A DNA stretch of 64,000 bases from Bacteroidota bacterium (GTDB taxonomy: Bacteria > Bacteroidota > Ignavibacteria > UBA10030 > SZUA-254): positions 1-64,000 of the forward strand of contig DATDFQ010000001.1 in NCBI GenBank assembly GCA_036522515.1, given 5' to 3'. Below, in pieces: positions 3,198 through 38,845 of this stretch; position 1 is the first letter of the stretch; every line of letters starts with the position of its first letter. The translations under genes were made by a program, and so were the position numbers. Below the pieces are notes generated by a model. That model made no database searches, was not told the origin of the DNA, and worked only from the letters and a program-made list of their open reading frames with translations.

Positions 3198-4340
3198 TTA
3201 GTGCCGGACGATATCGATCAGGGCTTCGACAGCCCGCTTATCCTCCGACTGACCGAGCCAGAAGATCGCTTCTTTCCGGATTTTCGGATTCGGGTGGGTG
3301 GTGGCGATCTTGATCACATCCTCGACTGCCCCGCCGTTGGAGCACTGGGTGAGAGCGAAGAGCGCATTCTTTTGAAGTTCAGTATCCTTGCTTGAGTAGA
3401 CGATGTCCTTCAGAGTGGATATTGCCTTCTCCGACGCCCGCTGACCCAGCCAGAAGGCCGCCTTCTTCCCGACTTCCCGTTCTGGACTCTCCTTGGCGAG
3501 TTTAATCAGGCCTTCCAGTCCGCGGTTTCCCTCCATCTGGCTGATCCCGAAGACCGCCTGCTCCTTGACCTTTTCGGATGCATCAGTTTCAGCCGCGTGC
3601 ATGAGAGCTCCGAGCGCCTCATCGGTATTCAATTGTCCGAGCCAGAAGGCGCTTTCCTCCCTCACGCTGCCTGTCTCCTTGCTTGTAAGAAGATCCCGCA
3701 GGAACGTAAAGACCGCCGGCGACGGTTCGTGAAGCCCGATCGCCCTCACGAGCTCCTTTTTTACCTCGGTCCACTGGGAGGCCGAGAATCTTGCCTTCAG
3801 GAATTCGATACTCTCCCCGTCCGCGGCGCCGCCAAGCCAGAGAAGAGGTGCGTCTTCGAAGTCGACGCGGAGCGAGAGGCTGCTGATCTTAATTTTGTCC
3901 GGCTCGATGGATGGCTTTCCCGAAAAGCGGAGCAGGATGCCCACTTCCTTTGCGACCTTTCTGCCTGACCCCCGGCCGTCATCGTCGTTAGTCACCACGT
4001 CATTGTCGTTGTCGTCACCGGTTATTCCGTCGGCGCGGATGTCGAGCTGTCTTGCGCCTGTGACGAGCTCGCTAAGCGAGGGCCTGTTCCGTCGCGGGTC
4101 GGAATAGAACGATCCGATATAGGAGTGCTCGGACATCTGCCGCTGGATGGAGTAGCCGACCCAATATCCGCTTTCGAATCCCCGCTTTTTCGCCTCGGCC
4201 TGGGCCCAGGCAAACTTACCCGGGAGCGGTGCCGCGGTATCGGGATCCCGCACGACCTTTTGAGCGGATGTGCCCGTGATCCCGATTGCGATCAAAAGTC
4301 CAAAAACGAAGTGCCGGGAGAAAAGTGTACCCTGTTTCAT
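3198..4340 (-). CDS. exported HEAT-repeat protein (second HEAT gene of the ECF operon)
   Basis: This is a 380-residue protein with an N-terminal signal peptide (hydrophobic core FVFGLLIAIGI, cleavage after TSA). Residues about 40-200 form a mixed region with an acidic stretch, DGITGDDNDNDVVTNDDD, that could bind calcium. The C-terminal 160 residues contain five HEAT-like repeats of about 31 residues, three of them marked FWLGQ (AFWLGQL, AFWLGQR, IFWLGQS). HEAT repeats are protein-binding solenoids. A strong ribosome-binding site (AAAGGAGT) precedes ATG 4340 inside the end of the upstream gene; only three bases separate the two genes, so they are one operon. It probably acts in the periplasm or at the outer membrane. 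Its partner is unknown. It has no catalytic motif. Confidence 0.8.
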   Translation of the reverse strand: MKQGTLFSRHFVFGLLIAIGITGTSAQKVVRDPDTAAPLPGKFAWAQAEAKKRGFESGYWVGYSIQRQMSEHSYIGSFYSDPRRNRPSLSELVTGARQLDIRADGITGDDNDNDVVTNDDDGRGSGRKVAKEVGILLRFSGKPSIEPDKIKISSLSLRVDFEDAPLLWLGGAADGESIEFLKARFSASQWTEVKKELVRAIGLHEPSPAVFTFLRDLLTSKETGSVREESAFWLGQLNTDEALGALMHAAETDASEKVKEQAVFGISQMEGNRGLEGLIKLAKESPEREVGKKAAFWLGQRASEKAISTLKDIVYSSKDTELQKNALFALTQCSNGGAVEDVIKIATTHPNPKIRKEAIFWLGQSEDKRAVEALIDIVRH

Positions 4341-4343
4341 CGG

Positions 4344-5933
4344 TCACTCCTTTCCCTTGGGCTTCATCTCGAGGATTTCAAGAAGTGCGGCCCGGGCCTT
4401 TTCGCTCCCGATCTGACCGAGCGCGTTCACCGCCGCGCTCCGGATATGTTTGTTCCCTCCGCTCTTTGCGACGCCCGCGAGGATGGGCACGGCGTCGTCG
4501 CTCCCCGTATTGCCGAGTGCGTTCACCGCCGCGCCCTGCAGTTCAGGATCGTTCTCATCGGCAGCGACACTGCCGAGCACTTTTATCGCGCCCGGCCCCT
4601 CCGCGTTGTTGCCGATCTGGTAGAGCGCCTGCTTCCGGACTTCGGGGAGCTTTGAACTTTTCACGATCTGCAGCATAAGCTCGGCGTCGTGGCCGTCGCT
4701 CAGATTTCCGAGGGCATACACCGCCGTCTTGCCGGTTTTCTCATCCGTACTGTTGACCGCGGTCTGCATGAGAAATTTCTTCGCTTCTTCTCCGCCCATG
4801 TTTCCGAGACTGTAGAGTGCCGCCTCGGTCACCTTCGGATTCGCGCTTTTTCCCGCGATCTCTTCGAGGGCGGTGAGGGCGCCGGCGCCTCCGATATTCC
4901 CGAGCGCGTACGCCGCATCCTTACCAAGGTCATGGTCGGGATCTGTGAGGCAGGCGTCTTTCAGGGCTGCGACTGCAACCGAGTTTCCCTGGTTCCCCAG
5001 CGCGTACATTGCGGCTTTCCGAACTTCCATCTGGGTCGCTTCCTTGATGACTCTCCGGAGCCCGTTCGAGGCCGCCGTGGTCGAAATATTGCCCAGCGCG
5101 TTTGCCGCCGCCTTCGCGAGGGCGGGATCACGGTCTGTCCGTGCAATTTCTTCCAGGAATGACGCGGCAGAATCCCCTTCGACGTTTCCGATCGTATAGA
5201 GGGCCGCGGTTCGCAATTCGGGATCGGCGTCCGAGTGGACGACTTTCTCGAGCGCCGAAACCGAGCCCGGGCCCCCGCTGTTCCCGATGGCGTAAACCGC
5301 ATCCTTCCTGACCTTGATGCTGGGATCTTTCAACGCGATCTCGCTCAGCTTCTGCCTGCTCTCCGCCGTTTCGAAATTGCCGAGAATGTAGACGATCTTG
5401 CTCCGGATGTTCTCGCTCGGCATCCCGGCATACAGAGAAACGATTGTGGAATACGCTTCTTTGCTCCCCATGTTTCCCAGTGCGTAGAGGGCCGCCAGCT
5501 TCACGTCCTCATCGCCCGAATCGTCCATCCCCTTGACGATCTTCTCGTACTCCGGTTTCCCTTCGCGCGAGAGCTGGTATGCGAGGTTGACCATGTTCGA
5601 TTTCGCGTCCTTCACCCATTTGCTCTTGGGGTAGGAGGAGATAAAGTCGCGATAACAGCCGAAGACCGCTTCCCTGGATTCTCCCAGCTTGTCGCGCGTG
5701 TAGCAGTGCCAGTAGCGGGCCGCGTCGATCAGGTTGCTCTTCGGATACTTCTTGACGAAGTCGGAGAGGGCGCTCTGCGCATCCCCCCATTTCTCATCGA
5801 GGATGCGGCTGTAGGCGGCTTCGTAGGCTTTCGAAGAGCCGTCCTGCGCCCGTGCCATCCCGGAGAGTCCGAGTGCGATGAGCACCGCCAGAATGATTGT
5901 GGTCTTGATTGAATTGCTGATCCGTTTTTGCAT
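4344..5933 (-). CDS. exported TPR/HEAT-repeat protein (first HEAT gene of the ECF operon)
   Basis: This 529-residue protein has a clear signal peptide (TTIILAVLIALGLSG, cleavage after ARA). Residues about 33-130 resemble BamD/YbgF-type TPRs (YEAAYSRILDEKWGDAQSAL, then FVKKYPKSNLIDAARYW). After that come twelve HEAT-like repeats of about 31 residues, most ending in an ALYALGN-type motif. The repeats are very regular, which suggests one extended solenoid. GGAGGA before ATG 5933 is a good ribosome-binding site. It follows the anti-sigma gene by 16 bases and precedes the second HEAT gene by three. The location suggests an envelope protein whose amount, or whose interaction with the anti-sigma factor, is tied to the sigma factor. 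That role is inferred; the repeats show only protein binding. Confidence 0.85.
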   Translation of the reverse strand: MQKRISNSIKTTIILAVLIALGLSGMARAQDGSSKAYEAAYSRILDEKWGDAQSALSDFVKKYPKSNLIDAARYWHCYTRDKLGESREAVFGCYRDFISSYPKSKWVKDAKSNMVNLAYQLSREGKPEYEKIVKGMDDSGDEDVKLAALYALGNMGSKEAYSTIVSLYAGMPSENIRSKIVYILGNFETAESRQKLSEIALKDPSIKVRKDAVYAIGNSGGPGSVSALEKVVHSDADPELRTAALYTIGNVEGDSAASFLEEIARTDRDPALAKAAANALGNISTTAASNGLRRVIKEATQMEVRKAAMYALGNQGNSVAVAALKDACLTDPDHDLGKDAAYALGNIGGAGALTALEEIAGKSANPKVTEAALYSLGNMGGEEAKKFLMQTAVNSTDEKTGKTAVYALGNLSDGHDAELMLQIVKSSKLPEVRKQALYQIGNNAEGPGAIKVLGSVAADENDPELQGAAVNALGNTGSDDAVPILAGVAKSGGNKHIRSAAVNALGQIGSEKARAALLEILEMKPKGKE

Positions 5934-5949
5934 TATGAATCCTCCGGTG

Positions 5950-6780
5950 TTACAGTGTGGTTTTCTTGGGTTGTTCGCCGGGCGACCTGCGCGCCATCGA
6001 GCGCATTTCTTCGAGATTAATCTTAAGCAATATGGATTTCTGATCGATGCCTTTTTGCACCATCTCGATGGCCGGGACCCCCGGTTTCACCTCGATGTTC
6101 GCAAGCTGCACGAGAATCACTTCGAGATCCATGATGAGCTGCCGGACCTGTTGCTGGCTCGGTTTGTTCAACGAGACGGTCAGCACGTCCGCCTGTTCGA
6201 TCAATTCCCGGGAGACTTCCTGGTTGTGCTTCAGGTCGATCGTGGCGCGGTGCTCCGCGTCGAGATTCGCGAGGCCGATGAGGAGATTCTTCGACCGCTG
6301 AAGGTAGGCGACGGCCTGGGAGGTGGCGCTGTCTTCGCTTTCGGGCAGGGGCGCGAGGGCGGGCGGGCTGCTCCGCTGTACGATTTCCGGCTGGTGAGTC
6401 CCGAAGTATGTTTTTCCCAGGTAGAACCCCACTGCGAGAAGAATTGTCGCGGCGATTCCGTATGCCCAGGCCGGCATGGCCGCCGGCCGGGTTGCAGCCT
6501 TCCTCCCCGGAAGGGGAGCCCGGTCGCCTGTAGCACGTGCGCCGGTTTCCCGGGTGCCGAGTTGCGCGTTGATCCGGTTCCAGAGCCCGGCTTCGAACGC
6601 TTCGCGGGGCTCGGGGATCCTGCGCCCGTCCATGATCGCGAGTGTTTCCTTGAGCGCCTGATATTCCCTGGAACAGGAGGCGCAGGTGGCGATATGTCCG
6701 GTGAGTTCCTTCTGGAGTTCCGGAGAAAGCTCGCCGTAGAGCCCCTCCGTGAATAATTCTCTTGCGTGATCACATGTCAT
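5950..6780 (-). CDS. zinc-finger anti-sigma factor, single-pass membrane protein
   Basis: This is a 276-residue protein. The N-terminal domain has the zinc-binding anti-sigma (ZAS/zf-HC2) pattern: C3-D-H5, then H29-x3-C33-x2-C36. A linker of about 65 residues leads to one membrane segment (about 104-122, YGIAATILLAVGFYLG). A periplasmic domain of about 150 residues follows, with a helical C terminus and no known catalytic residues. Such proteins hold their ECF sigma factor inactive until an envelope signal releases it. I chose ATG 6780 because AAGGAGA lies seven bases upstream; a TTG at 6786 overlaps the sigma-factor stop. The partner is the sigma factor directly upstream, two bases away. The periplasmic part may sense the exported HEAT proteins encoded next. 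Confidence 0.88.
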   Translation of the reverse strand: MTCDHARELFTEGLYGELSPELQKELTGHIATCASCSREYQALKETLAIMDGRRIPEPREAFEAGLWNRINAQLGTRETGARATGDRAPLPGRKAATRPAAMPAWAYGIAATILLAVGFYLGKTYFGTHQPEIVQRSSPPALAPLPESEDSATSQAVAYLQRSKNLLIGLANLDAEHRATIDLKHNQEVSRELIEQADVLTVSLNKPSQQQVRQLIMDLEVILVQLANIEVKPGVPAIEMVQKGIDQKSILLKINLEEMRSMARRSPGEQPKKTTL

Positions 6781-6782
6781 GG

Positions 6783-7367
6783 TCAATCTCCTTCCAATCC
6801 CAATTCAGGCCTGTAGAAAGCGAGCTCGCGCCGGAGGCGTTGCAGCGCGCGGAAGAGGTGCGACTTGACGGTCCCTTCCGCGATCTGCATCGTGTCGGCG
6901 ATCTCCCTCAAGGGGAGGTCGTGGTAGTGCCGGAGCACGAACACGGACCGTTCCTGGGGCGAGAGCCGGCCGAGCGCGCGTTCGATGTGCTCGTGAATCA
7001 TGCCTGACTCCGTTTCTCTGTCCGGCATGATGGCAGTGGCGCTGCGGCCCGGTTCCTGTTGCAGATCGTCATCGATATCTTCCCTGTATTCAAGGCGCTT
7101 TCCTGAGCGTGCATCCCGGTGGTCGAGACAAATGTTCACCGTGATACGGTAGATCCATGTGCTCCATTTGGCCTCCCGACGGAAGCCCGGAAGCGCCCGG
7201 TATGCCCGGACAAAGACTTCCTGCGACAGGTCTTCCGCATCGTGGCGGTTGCCGGTCAGATCGTATGCAAGCCGGTACACTGTGCGATTCGAGCGCTCCA
7301 CGAGTTGCCGGAACGCGTCCCCGTCTCCCTGCTGTGCACGATCGATGAGCAACTGTTCATCGGTCAA
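6783..7367 (-). CDS. ECF-family RNA polymerase sigma factor (RpoE/SigW type)
   Basis: This 194-residue protein has sigma region 2 (AFRQLVERSNRTVYRLAYDL with GNRHDAEDLSQEVFVRAY) and region 4 (LSPQERSVFVLRHYHDLPL, then EGTVKSHLFRALQRLR). The likely start is TTG 7367, preceded by AAGGAG five bases upstream. A longer reading from 7451 adds 28 residues that match no sigma factor and would read across the promoter at 7384-7418. It should direct polymerase to envelope-stress genes and is held by the anti-sigma factor encoded immediately downstream. Two copies of a shared ECF-type promoter, one before this gene and one before the DUF5916 gene, indicate autoregulation and at least one further target. 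Confidence 0.93.
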   Translation of the reverse strand: MTDEQLLIDRAQQGDGDAFRQLVERSNRTVYRLAYDLTGNRHDAEDLSQEVFVRAYRALPGFRREAKWSTWIYRITVNICLDHRDARSGKRLEYREDIDDDLQQEPGRSATAIMPDRETESGMIHEHIERALGRLSPQERSVFVLRHYHDLPLREIADTMQIAEGTVKSHLFRALQRLRRELAFYRPELGLEGD

Positions 7368-7383: not shown

Positions 7384-7418
7384 CTGTATAAGACGGAAAG
7401 TACGAGGAAAAGGTTTAC
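7384..7418 (-). promoter_or_regulatory. ECF-type promoter of the sigma-factor operon
   Basis: On the minus strand, GTAAACCTTT (-35 region) is followed by CCGTCT (-10 region) and ATACAG. The layout is like AAAC/CGTC promoters of ECF sigma factors. It aligns without gaps over 35 bases with the site at 10485-10519. Transcription would start near 7385, leaving a leader of about 18 bases before TTG 7367. Confidence 0.7.
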
Positions 7419-7470
7419 GGAACAACAAAACAAGCTGATTTGGGCTATCACGGTTTCGCGATATTTCTCT

Positions 7471-7556
7471 CCACCTCGTCATGCTGACATGCTCCTGGTC
7501 AGCATCTTTCAACTCTTTTATAAAGATCCCGACCTAAAACATGCCGGGATAACGAG
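7471..7556. repeat. dispersed palindromic repeat, CTCGTCAT family (copy 1)
   Basis: An imperfect hairpin runs from CCACCTCGTCATGCTGACAT to CATGCCGGGATAACGAG. Each arm contains its own small hairpin. Related copies lie at 50788-50876 and 60663-60754. All are intergenic, and no protein is encoded. Confidence 0.75.
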
Positions 7557-7590
7557 AGAGGGTGAAACTGCGACACTACCGGGCGGTTTG

Positions 7591-7730
7591 GTAGGTGTAG
7601 ACTTCAGGCTGCGCCCAAAAAAAACGCGACCTAAAGGTCGCGCCTACCGTTATCTCTGCCGGTTTCTCCTGGTAGCCGCAGCCTTCAGGCTGCGCTGAAT
7701 GGCACGCGACCTGAAGGTCGCGCCTACCGG
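7591..7730. repeat. REP-like cluster: two CGCGACC palindromes and two CGCAGCC palindromes
   Basis: Perfect 18-base palindromes of type A (CGCGACC/GGTCGCG) lie at 7625-7642 and 7705-7722. A type B copy (CGCAGCC/GGCTGCG) lies at 7677-7694, with a decayed B copy near 7591-7613. Each palindrome is flanked by CTACC or GGTAG. The cluster fills the gap between the DUF5916 gene and the sigma promoter. The 7368-7743 gap holds no gene. Confidence 0.85.
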
Positions 7731-7743
7731 GAGATCTGAAATA

Positions 7744-10389
7744 CTACATATTCCACCAGTACGAAAGCTTGACGAGGAAAATGTTGTCGGGCGTCGCATC
7801 GAAGAGGTGCCCGATCGATCTGTTAAACTGGAATTCGCCGTCATCGTCCATTCCGCTCCGGCTCTGCGTCCAGACAAAATAGACCGTCGAGCCGGGGAGG
7901 TACTCCCACCGCAGGATCGCGCTTCCGCGCAGCGACTTCAGGTTGAAATCGGGGTTTGAAAACGTGAAGGGGGAGGAGCCGGCCGGTGTCACGGAATACT
8001 CGTTCGTTGCATCGTCCAGTCCAATCGTCGATCCATTCTCACCGTAATAGTTGAAATCGTATGTTTTCGGCTGCGCCAGTTCCTTGAAACGGTTGAATTG
8101 CGCCGCGGAAATAAGGGGCTGAACATACACCTGGAGGCTCATCTGGGGAGTAAAGGTCCAGTTCAGCCGCATCCCCGCCGAGAGGGTGTTCTGATTCATT
8201 TCTCCAAACACATACCGTCTCCCGAACGTGGACCGGGCGGCCGGGTCGACGAAGGTCCCCACATACTGGGCGCCTTCGAAGTCGTGCTCGAACGACGGGC
8301 TGAACGAGAAGGAAATATTCGTCGAGGGCCTCCACTGGACACTGGGCGAAAAAGCCCAATCCCTGGTATGGACCGCCTGGTACGTGAACCAATCGAAGCT
8401 GAAAACCAAACTCTTGCGTTGATCAGTGGAGGGATAGAGATCAAACTGGTACCCCGGCGGTGTCAGCATCGCCGGTCCGCCGCGAGTCCTGCGGGTGCTG
8501 ATCGTCTGCGGGTTATAGGCGGTGTTCCAATTGAGCGAGTAAAAGTTAGGAAACTCAATGTACCCGAAGTGGAACAGGCCTCTCCAGGTGGAATTCATAT
8601 CGAAGTCGTAATTTTGAAAGAGCGAGCCGCCGAGTTCTATAAACCGGTAGAATGACCGGGGCTCCGTCCAGCGGTAGCTCATCACGAGATGACCATTGAT
8701 GACATCCGAGCGCGACATGAAACCGAGATCGTTCGGTTCGTACTTCGGGTTGATGACACCGAGAGAGGCGTTGAGATAGAAGTTGCCTTTTTGCTTGTTC
8801 AGCCTGAAGCGGGCTGAGTAGCCGGTCATGGAGGTCGCATTACTGTCGACCGCTACATCATCCGCGTCGGGGCGCTGGAAGTAATGCTGGGAATTCCGTT
8901 GCAGGGAGAGCATGCGCGCCCTGTTGCCGTCGACCCGCGACACCGAAGCCCATGCGCCAAGGACCCAGGTTTTGTCCTGATCGATCGTCCACCACCCGTC
9001 GAGACCGCCGACGAATCCGTCTTTGTTGATCTGATCCCTGAGCCGGTCGTCCTGAAACTGCCGCGACGCAAGCGAGGAGAAAAAGCCGAGCGCTTCGCGC
9101 CCCTTCTCGAATTCTTTCTGCGCCCGCACGACGCCGTAGTAGGTGAGGGGTTCCACTTCCGCCCGTGACCGGACGCTGCCGGTTTGAATGTCCGCGAACT
9201 CGCGGGATGTGACTGCCTGGATCGCGCCGATATTCCAGCTCTCGAGTACTTTTCCGGTGATCTTCGCCGCGCCCAGGATGTCGGTTCCGGAAGGAACGTC
9301 CGCGAAATCGGCGTTCGGCGTGCTCCCCTGGGGGGCTCTGCCGATGCGCCGGCTGTAGAGGAACGTGACGCCGGGCCAGTTGAATCCCCAGTTGTTGTTC
9401 GTCCCTCCGGAGCCGAAATTGAAGATGGTCGATCCCTCGATGAAGAACGGGCGCTTTTCCTGGAAGAACGTTTCCACATCGCTCAGGTTGACCACCGCCG
9501 GATCGACCTCGACCTGTCCGAAATCGGGATAAACGGTTCCGTCGAGCGTCAGGTTCGGGCCAAGGCCCATCTTGAGGTCTCCCCCAAACTTCGGAGTGTA
9601 CCGGGAACCGCTGTTGAACGGATCGTTCGGGAGGTGGCTCGAGTATTCGGCTCGCGTCGTAAGGTAGGGAAGAAACTCCGCCTGCCGCGCGGCGTTGATA
9701 TTCTCGATCCCGACGAGATCGGGAAACCGGGAGACGAAGCCGCTGCCGTTCTTCGGCGTGAAGACCACATAGGCGCGCTCGTTGCGGCGCGCGACGTCCC
9801 TCCGGAAGTTGATCCCCCATGTGTACTGGTCTTTCTGCTGAAACCGGAGCTGCGAAAAAGGAATCCGCATCTCCGCGGTCCAACCATGGTCGTCGCGATG
9901 CACTTTTCCCTCCCACACCCCGTTCCACGAGTCGTCGTTCCATTCGTCGTTGTAGAGGGTGCCGTCGTAGAGGGTGCCGGCCGCGTCGAGGGCGAAATAG
10001 AATCCGCTGATCTGGTCATGATAGGGATCGAGATAGCAGAAGAACATGTCGGAATCCCAGTTTCCGTCGCGGCGGCTGAGCCGCACGACCATCGAATCAG
10101 GGGCGGTATCGACGCAACGCGCTCCGATGTAGAGGGCTGCGTCGTCGTATGCCACATGGACGGTCGTGGTTTGTGAAGCGGGAGCTCCTTCCACGGGATC
10201 GAGCTGCCGGAAGGTTGAAATACCGTCGTCCTTGCTCCAGACCGGCTCGCTCAGCATCCCGTCGATGACGACCGGTTCGGTAATATGTATGGCATGAACG
10301 GTGAGTTTGGGGGTTGCGGCCGAATCGGGCACCTCTGCCCGGATGAGGCCCGGGAGGGCGAACAGAAGCGCGCAGAGCAACAATTTCAT
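7744..10389 (-). CDS. CBM9-like / DUF5916 outer-membrane beta-barrel protein
   Basis: This 881-residue protein has a signal peptide (LLLCALLFALPGLIRA). Residues about 30-220 match the family-9 carbohydrate-binding fold found at the N terminus of DUF5916 proteins (PVVIDGMLSEPVWSKDD, VHVAYDDAALYIGARC). The rest is a DUF5916-type barrel, with VDPAVVNLSDVETFFQEKRP near residue 300 and many alternating aromatic strands, ending in YWWNM. The function of the family is not settled; it is common in FCB bacteria and is presumed to handle a glycan or another surface ligand. The start has a good AAGGAG. An ECF-type promoter identical in layout to that of the nearby sigma operon lies 96 bases upstream (10485-10519), so expression is probably under that sigma factor. 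Confidence 0.9.
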   Translation of the reverse strand: MKLLLCALLFALPGLIRAEVPDSAATPKLTVHAIHITEPVVIDGMLSEPVWSKDDGISTFRQLDPVEGAPASQTTTVHVAYDDAALYIGARCVDTAPDSMVVRLSRRDGNWDSDMFFCYLDPYHDQISGFYFALDAAGTLYDGTLYNDEWNDDSWNGVWEGKVHRDDHGWTAEMRIPFSQLRFQQKDQYTWGINFRRDVARRNERAYVVFTPKNGSGFVSRFPDLVGIENINAARQAEFLPYLTTRAEYSSHLPNDPFNSGSRYTPKFGGDLKMGLGPNLTLDGTVYPDFGQVEVDPAVVNLSDVETFFQEKRPFFIEGSTIFNFGSGGTNNNWGFNWPGVTFLYSRRIGRAPQGSTPNADFADVPSGTDILGAAKITGKVLESWNIGAIQAVTSREFADIQTGSVRSRAEVEPLTYYGVVRAQKEFEKGREALGFFSSLASRQFQDDRLRDQINKDGFVGGLDGWWTIDQDKTWVLGAWASVSRVDGNRARMLSLQRNSQHYFQRPDADDVAVDSNATSMTGYSARFRLNKQKGNFYLNASLGVINPKYEPNDLGFMSRSDVINGHLVMSYRWTEPRSFYRFIELGGSLFQNYDFDMNSTWRGLFHFGYIEFPNFYSLNWNTAYNPQTISTRRTRGGPAMLTPPGYQFDLYPSTDQRKSLVFSFDWFTYQAVHTRDWAFSPSVQWRPSTNISFSFSPSFEHDFEGAQYVGTFVDPAARSTFGRRYVFGEMNQNTLSAGMRLNWTFTPQMSLQVYVQPLISAAQFNRFKELAQPKTYDFNYYGENGSTIGLDDATNEYSVTPAGSSPFTFSNPDFNLKSLRGSAILRWEYLPGSTVYFVWTQSRSGMDDDGEFQFNRSIGHLFDATPDNIFLVKLSYWWNM

Positions 10390-10484
10390 AGGGAACTCCT
10401 TGACGACCTGATGGAGCCGGTAAGTTCGGTTGGCTTCGCAGCGCCGTTCGCCCGGGGGTGAGCCGGCAGCCGTTTACTTGTATA

Positions 10485-10519
10485 CTGTCTTAGACGGGAA
10501 TGGTTACAGAAAGGTTGAC
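10485..10519 (-). promoter_or_regulatory. second ECF-type promoter, upstream of the DUF5916 gene
   Basis: On the minus strand, GTCAACCTTT is followed at identical spacing by CCGTCT and AGACAG. It aligns with 7384-7418 over 35 bases with no gap, matching almost fully in both end blocks while the middle differs. That pattern is expected of a promoter. The leader would be about 96 bases. Confidence 0.68.
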
Positions 10520-30263: not shown

Positions 30264-30395
30264 GACTGAGTTTCGTTGCCATCTCGGTACGCGACCTGAA
30301 GGTCGCGCCTACCGGCACCTCGGGTTTGGTAGCCGCAGCCTTTAGGCTGCGTCTTTTTGGTTCGGCAGTTTAGCTTCACCCACCACGGCCCTCCG
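30264..30395. repeat. composite REP-like unit: type A palindrome, spacer, type B palindrome
   Basis: The type A palindrome CGCGACCTGAAGGTCGCG at 30290-30307 and type B CGCAGCCTTTAGGCTGCG at 30334-30351 are joined by CCTCGGGTTTGGTAGC. Another unit with the same order and similar flanks lies at 38716-38845. The whole 130-base unit is thus a repeated element. Confidence 0.85.
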
Positions 30396-38715: not shown

Positions 38716-38845
38716 TGGCTGATTTTTCTCGCCTTCTCGTCCCGCGACCTGAAGGTCGCGGCTACCGATGCCTCGGGCTTGGTAGCCGCAGCCTTTAGGC
38801 TGCGGGTTTTCGGCTCGGCAGTAAAATCACCCACTACCTCCTTCC
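38716..38845. repeat. composite REP-like unit, second copy
   Basis: Type A palindrome at 38743-38760 and type B at 38787-38804 are separated by CTACCGATGCCTCGGGCTTG. The following CTCGGCAGT and CACCCACTACC resemble the tail of the copy at 30264-30395. It fills the gap between the tRNA and the RND gene. The 38526-38869 interval has no protein gene. Confidence 0.85.

Follow-up and report, generated by a model that had tools for sequence, protein, structure and literature searches.

A small predicted ECF regulon joins a sigma factor operon and a DUF5916 gene through matching promoters in an Ignavibacteria genome

Among the described hallmarks of extracytoplasmic function (ECF) sigma factors are promoters of the AAC/CGT type, positive autoregulation and an anti-sigma gene transcribed together with the sigma gene (PMC8103513). 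We analyzed a 64,000-nucleotide stretch of an Ignavibacteria genome assembly (contig DATDFQ010000001.1, hereafter the window), in which one operon encodes such a sigma factor, here called SIG. The locus resembles general ECF/zinc-finger anti-sigma operons in that the sigma factor has regions 2 and 4 only, a predicted AAC/CGT promoter is of the type in question and belongs to its own gene, and the anti-sigma gene lies directly downstream (PMC8103513). It differs from them in that the operon runs on into two putatively exported HEAT-repeat proteins and in that its predicted second target encodes a probable DUF5916 barrel. The E. coli RpoE-RseA-RseB system (described in part in PMC8103513) would work in a similar way, with a membrane anti-sigma factor, exported accessory proteins and a link to the outer membrane. 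In contrast to that system, however, the anti-sigma factor of SIG is of the zf-HC2 type, the HEAT proteins are not demonstrably RseB-like, and the regulon seemingly comprises two genes rather than many. An autoregulated ECF circuit is known, whereas a recurrent DUF5916 output is new with respect to the literature searched: we found no paper naming the DUF5916 family, and searches on HEAT-ECF operons and on Ignavibacteria anti-sigma factors returned nothing relevant. Our favored reading, which we hold to be fairly probable, is that the window contains a small ECF regulon in which matching promoters allow SIG to drive the DUF5916 gene as well as its own operon.

Table 1. Features of the predicted regulon (positions in the window)
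Feature	Position	Strand	Basis
ECF sigma factor (SIG), TTG start	6783..7367	-	Pfam Sigma70_r2 4.7e-18, Sigma70_r4_2 1.4e-17; NCBIfam sigma70-ECF; orthologue clade
Anti-sigma factor, N-terminal zf-HC2	5950..6786	-	Pfam zf-HC2 5.2e-07; hydropathy
HEAT-repeat protein 1	4344..5933	-	Pfam HEAT_2 7.5e-66, YfiO 3.6e-06; hydropathy
HEAT-repeat protein 2, signal-peptide-like start	3198..4340	-	Pfam HEAT_2 2.4e-22; operon order kept in relatives
DUF5916 protein	7744..10389	-	Pfam DUF5916 5.7e-62, CBM9_1 7.8e-08
Predicted ECF-type promoter of sigma operon	7384..7418	-	sequence; top-2 matrix match; same element ~50 bp before orthologue starts
Predicted ECF-type promoter of DUF5916 gene	10485..10519	-	sequence; top matrix match; kept before unlinked orthologues

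SIG is a protein of 194 aa in which only regions 2 (Sigma70_r2, residues 22-86) and 4 (Sigma70_r4_2, residues 128-178) are present. It scores above the cut-off for TIGR02937 (sigma70-ECF), while all its scores against the NCBIfam equivalogs shown fall below theirs. This domain content, together with the adjoining anti-sigma gene and the predicted AAC/CGT promoter at its own gene, places SIG among the ECF (group IV) sigma factors. The zf-HC2 gene overlaps the 3' end of the sigma gene, and its true start is probably the ATG at 6780; hydropathy predicts a single membrane helix near residue 106 of its product. HEAT-repeat protein 1 has a signal-peptide-like start and an N-terminal YfiO-like stretch.

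The DUF5916 protein combines a signal-peptide-like start with a CBM9-like N-terminal domain and a C-terminal part rich in beta strands, and it matches the PF19313 profile with 210.7 bits (curated cut-off, 22.6). No match was found when solved structures were searched with the DUF5916 profile. The protein shows many long strands. Modeling on the basis of 15 orthologues gave a structure of low confidence (mean pLDDT 51), and the best solved structures that Foldseek matched to it were outer-membrane barrels and a carbohydrate-binding module of family 9. The name barrel, which the gene had been given from sequence inspection, fits the signal-peptide-like start and the Foldseek matches, but a model at pLDDT 51 is no proof of it, and we regard the protein as probably an outer-membrane barrel. 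Two copies of a dispersed palindromic repeat, CGACCTNNAGGTCGCG, lie between the DUF5916 and sigma genes (7625-7642 and 7705-7722), and two more at 30290-30307 and 38743-38760; these make eight strand-wise matches against 0.06 expected.

Both predicted promoters are intergenic and read on the minus strand, as GTAAACCTTTTCCTCGTACTTTCCGTCTTATACAG (7418-7384) and GTCAACCTTTCTGTAACCATTCCCGTCTAAGACAG (10519-10485). The original prediction had described two 35-base sites that align without a gap, 17 and 96 bases before their genes, and the sequence bears this out. The sigma site, GTAAACCTTT-N12-CCGTCTTATACAG, ends 17 bases before the TTG at 7367, which has GAAGGAG just upstream; its -35 element is AACCTTT (7415-7409) and its -10 element CGTCTTA (7395-7389). 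The DUF5916 site, GTCAACCTTT-N12-CCGTCTAAGACAG, lies just past the end of an ammonium-transporter gene (10539) and stops 96 bases short of the DUF5916 start codon, the ATG at 10389, with AACCTTT at 10516-10510 and CGTCTAA at 10496-10490. In ECF terms the layout at both is AAC-N17-CGTC, which supports their reading as ECF-type promoters. Of the element proposed as shared, AAC-N17-CGTC followed by T or C is conserved, whereas ACAG is not fixed, and we dropped it from the motif because it is missing from the corresponding position in sigma orthologues.

To score the sites we used a matrix derived solely from the promoters that precede the sigma gene in nine other genomes, a set that excludes the source genome (G000) and its congener G001. 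Among 127,926 positions of the window, the DUF5916 site ranked first (28.1 bits) and the sigma site second (27.3 bits), and the third match reached just 11.4 bits. The core including CCGTCT and ACAG, with up to three mismatches, occurs in the window at the two exact sites and at one site with three mismatches (chance mean 0.31). Throughout the 3.5-Mb genome, the exact pattern AACYTTT-N13-CGTCTWA has two matches, both of them the window sites, and the reversed-pattern control has none; allowing one mismatch adds two matches. Short motifs do recur, and near matches exist in every genome, which would favor a chance likeness of two intergenic stretches. Against this, both sites score 27-28 bits where the next position scores 11.4, and they are conserved before unlinked orthologues; we consider chance similarity refuted on these grounds. 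In genome-wide pattern searches, the 11-base pattern with one mismatch was not enriched over reversed controls, so genome-wide enrichment is unusable as an argument, while position and conservation are usable. A one-mismatch copy, AACGTTT-N13-CGTCTAA (G000:C24:3543-3569, L358), lies 40 bp before a possible start of a beta-lactamase-family gene (PF00144), which is a possible third member of the regulon.

The site at the sigma gene is kept far beyond the source genome. Our close relatives for comparison were Ignavibacteria metagenome-assembled genomes, and SIG orthologues with 47-75% identity were found in seven genomes (G001, G003, G004, G008, G009, G019 and G062) and on three contigs labeled SpSt-1156 (L034), Calditrichaeota (L035) and Neomarinimicrobiota (L036). 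In all ten, AAC-N17-CGTC precedes the aligned start by about 50-55 bp, so that conservation of the sigma gene's own promoter spans Ignavibacteria, Calditrichota and Neomarinimicrobiota. The upstream region of the orthologue in G014 falls off its contig, and no such site was seen before the sigma gene on a Krumholzibacteria contig (L037). Most of the orthologue loci retain the order sigma, anti-sigma, HEAT, and G019, which belongs to a different family, also keeps the order of DUF5916 and SIG. One of the proposed checks was whether related genomes keep the site beside this sigma factor; they do, and the autoregulation that had been proposed is strongly supported at the sequence level. Conservation by itself cannot separate a promoter from an operator, and both sites might accordingly be bound by some other regulator. 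We judge this very improbable, given that layout and spacing match ECF promoters, that 17 bases separate the first site from the sigma start, and that several ECF clades have a variant of their own at a similar place.

The second site recurs as well. In G001, G003 and G004 the exact pattern occurs exactly twice per genome, once upstream of the orthologue of SIG and once upstream of that of DUF5916, and these two genes are on separate contigs. Across the 15 genomes of the family, all 13 exact sites lie at genes of these two types; for 12 of them the gene was seen directly, and for the one in G010, where the contig ends, it was assigned by synteny with G006. The two predicted promoters are the sole exact copies in the source genome and are conserved before the same two gene types, and the proposal of a small regulon comprising the sigma operon and DUF5916 holds as far as sequence can tell. 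In the source genome, one of five DUF5916 genes has the site, namely that in the window. The comparisons support a small regulon and a promoter common to DUF5916 even where it is unlinked from the sigma gene, and a part in an envelope response is probable for DUF5916 proteins. By eye, most family members appeared to have their DUF5916 orthologue divergent from a GldA/GldF/GldG-like ABC transporter cluster (L297-L301, L380, L381, L388). Tandem ECF-type promoters, CGTCTAAT and TGTCTTAA, lie 58 bp apart before one DUF5916 gene in G004 (L386) and G012 (L296).

Which sigma factor reads the DUF5916 promoter is a separate matter. For the source genome, the assignment to SIG is well supported, though short of proof: the window sites are the top matrix matches, and the spacing and -10 bases (N17, CGTC) fit SIG and do not fit its nearest universal paralogue, group B, or group C. 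Group B and group C ECF factors are disfavored as readers by their -10 bases (TGTCTAA and mostly CATCTAA, respectively), with the exception that the group C promoter of G013 reads CGTCTAA. Among genomes lacking a close SIG orthologue, however, the DUF5916 promoter is clear in G006 and G007 and has altered letters or spacing in G005 and G011; it is degraded in G013 and was not recognized in G002. G012, which is just 81% complete, also has the promoter, but SIG is present in both of its congeners, G004 and G014. The SIG-less relatives that keep the promoter are near-complete. Elsewhere, the -10 element of DUF5916 reads AGTCTTA in G019 and is weak in G008, and no site was found before DUF5916 in G062. 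Since the promoter is kept in SIG-less relatives, it is not established that SIG is the reader, or the sole reader, of the DUF5916 promoter.

An alternative is that a different ECF factor serves the DUF5916 promoter, E2 in some members and another in others, with SIG autoregulating its own operon only and the likeness of the promoters arising because related ECF factors have near-identical promoters. Besides the near-complete SIG-less genomes, a consistent difference at the -10 element favors this, with CGTCTTA before most SIG orthologues and CGTCTAA at most DUF5916 genes. So does the lack of a significant relation between the matrix score of the DUF5916 promoter and the presence of SIG (Mann-Whitney p = 0.45); the score was higher in genomes with SIG or E2 than in those with neither, a difference that is not significant (p = 0.075) in genomes that are related to each other. 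E2 is a separate ECF clade whose gene in G006 is divergent from DUF5916 and has its own promoter, AACATTT-N13-CGTCTAA, and in G010 the E2 gene is likewise accompanied by this pair of promoters. However, E2 is absent from G000 (best match 4.2e-12), G001, G005, G007, G008, G009, G011 and G013, and we rejected it as the general reader on that account. G005, G007, G011 and G013 lack both SIG and E2, so no named alternative covers all cases. Moreover, no other ECF gene detected by Pfam in the source genome has a clean CGTCTAA promoter of its own, no other window position comes near the two sites in its SIG matrix score, and SIG and DUF5916 share the motif in another phylum too. For the window we therefore think this alternative rather unlikely and prefer SIG as the reader, with cross-reading by other ECF factors in the source genome possible; in relatives, the DUF5916 promoter probably has one or more further ECF factors as readers.

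If SIG does control both genes, family knowledge suggests how the circuit would most likely operate. The zinc-finger anti-sigma factor encoded beside SIG would span the membrane and keep SIG bound until it is released by an envelope signal, for which the exported HEAT proteins are perhaps the sensors. Free SIG would then transcribe its own operon (SIG, anti-sigma factor and the two HEAT-repeat proteins) from the first promoter and the DUF5916 gene from the second. The HEAT proteins would reside in the periplasm, where they may detect or modulate the signal, and the DUF5916 protein would be the outer-membrane effector.

Another phylum shows this pairing of targets too. On a Neomarinimicrobiota chromosome (CP070638), exact AACCTTT-N13-CGTCT occurs at four sites: before the SIG orthologue, before one DUF5916 gene and before two small secreted proteins. 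For one of the three further exact sites to land by chance in the 200 bp upstream of a DUF5916 gene, the probability is about 8e-4. A site with one mismatch precedes a second DUF5916 gene, giving two with a site among nine DUF5916 matches. The two small secreted proteins (L428 and L429; 117 and 132 aa) are related to each other. The sharing of a conserved promoter between DUF5916 and an ECF operon, seen in two phyla, offers a first functional handle on these proteins, for which the literature searched describes no role. A broader reading, which we put forward tentatively and rate as somewhat doubtful, is that DUF5916 barrels are a standing ECF partner in Ignavibacteria and Neomarinimicrobiota, with several ECF clades, each having a distinct -10 variant, separately wired to a DUF5916 gene, the ECF factor exchangeable and the barrel promoter kept. 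Were this true, the wiring could be by shared promoter, operon or divergent pair, and the barrel may be either the sensor or the output of the circuit.

The ECF genes of ten family genomes form clades with their own promoter variants, and the factors of other clades likewise use AAC-N16/17-GTC promoters. The -10 element is CGTCTTA in the sigma clade, TGTCTAA in group B, RGTCTAA in B2, mostly CATCTAA in group C and mostly CGTCTAA in E2, and these paralogous modules are a natural test bed for the divergence of ECF -10 specificity. In other families of the order, a CGTCTAA-type site lies about 40 bp before DUF4097-like proteins. Promoters of the CGTCTAA/CGTCTTA type are found there close before proteins of about 300 aa (L315-L318, L320-L325 and L327), one of which is a confirmed DUF4097 protein, and they likely belong to another ECF regulon. 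Because DUF5916 genes, DUF4097-like genes and several ECF clades share the motif type, AAC-N17-CGTC alone identifies no single sigma factor across the order.

Two of the paralogous modules also include DUF5916. The B2 module has the order ECF, anti-sigma, toastrack-like protein, DUF5916, where the toastrack reading rests on the repeat pattern (one protein scanned, no Pfam match). The group B module (G000:C56:37-43 kb) has the same parts in the same order as the SIG locus, namely DUF5916, ECF promoter, ECF, anti-sigma (in relatives) and a HEAT/YfiO-like protein; unlike the SIG locus, it has TGTCTAA as its -10 element, and a search upstream of its DUF5916 gene gave no matching promoter. The wider region (G000:C56:34000-50000, L396) contains DUF5916, the group B ECF gene with its TGTCTAAC promoter, the HEAT/YfiO-like protein and a second DUF5916 gene.
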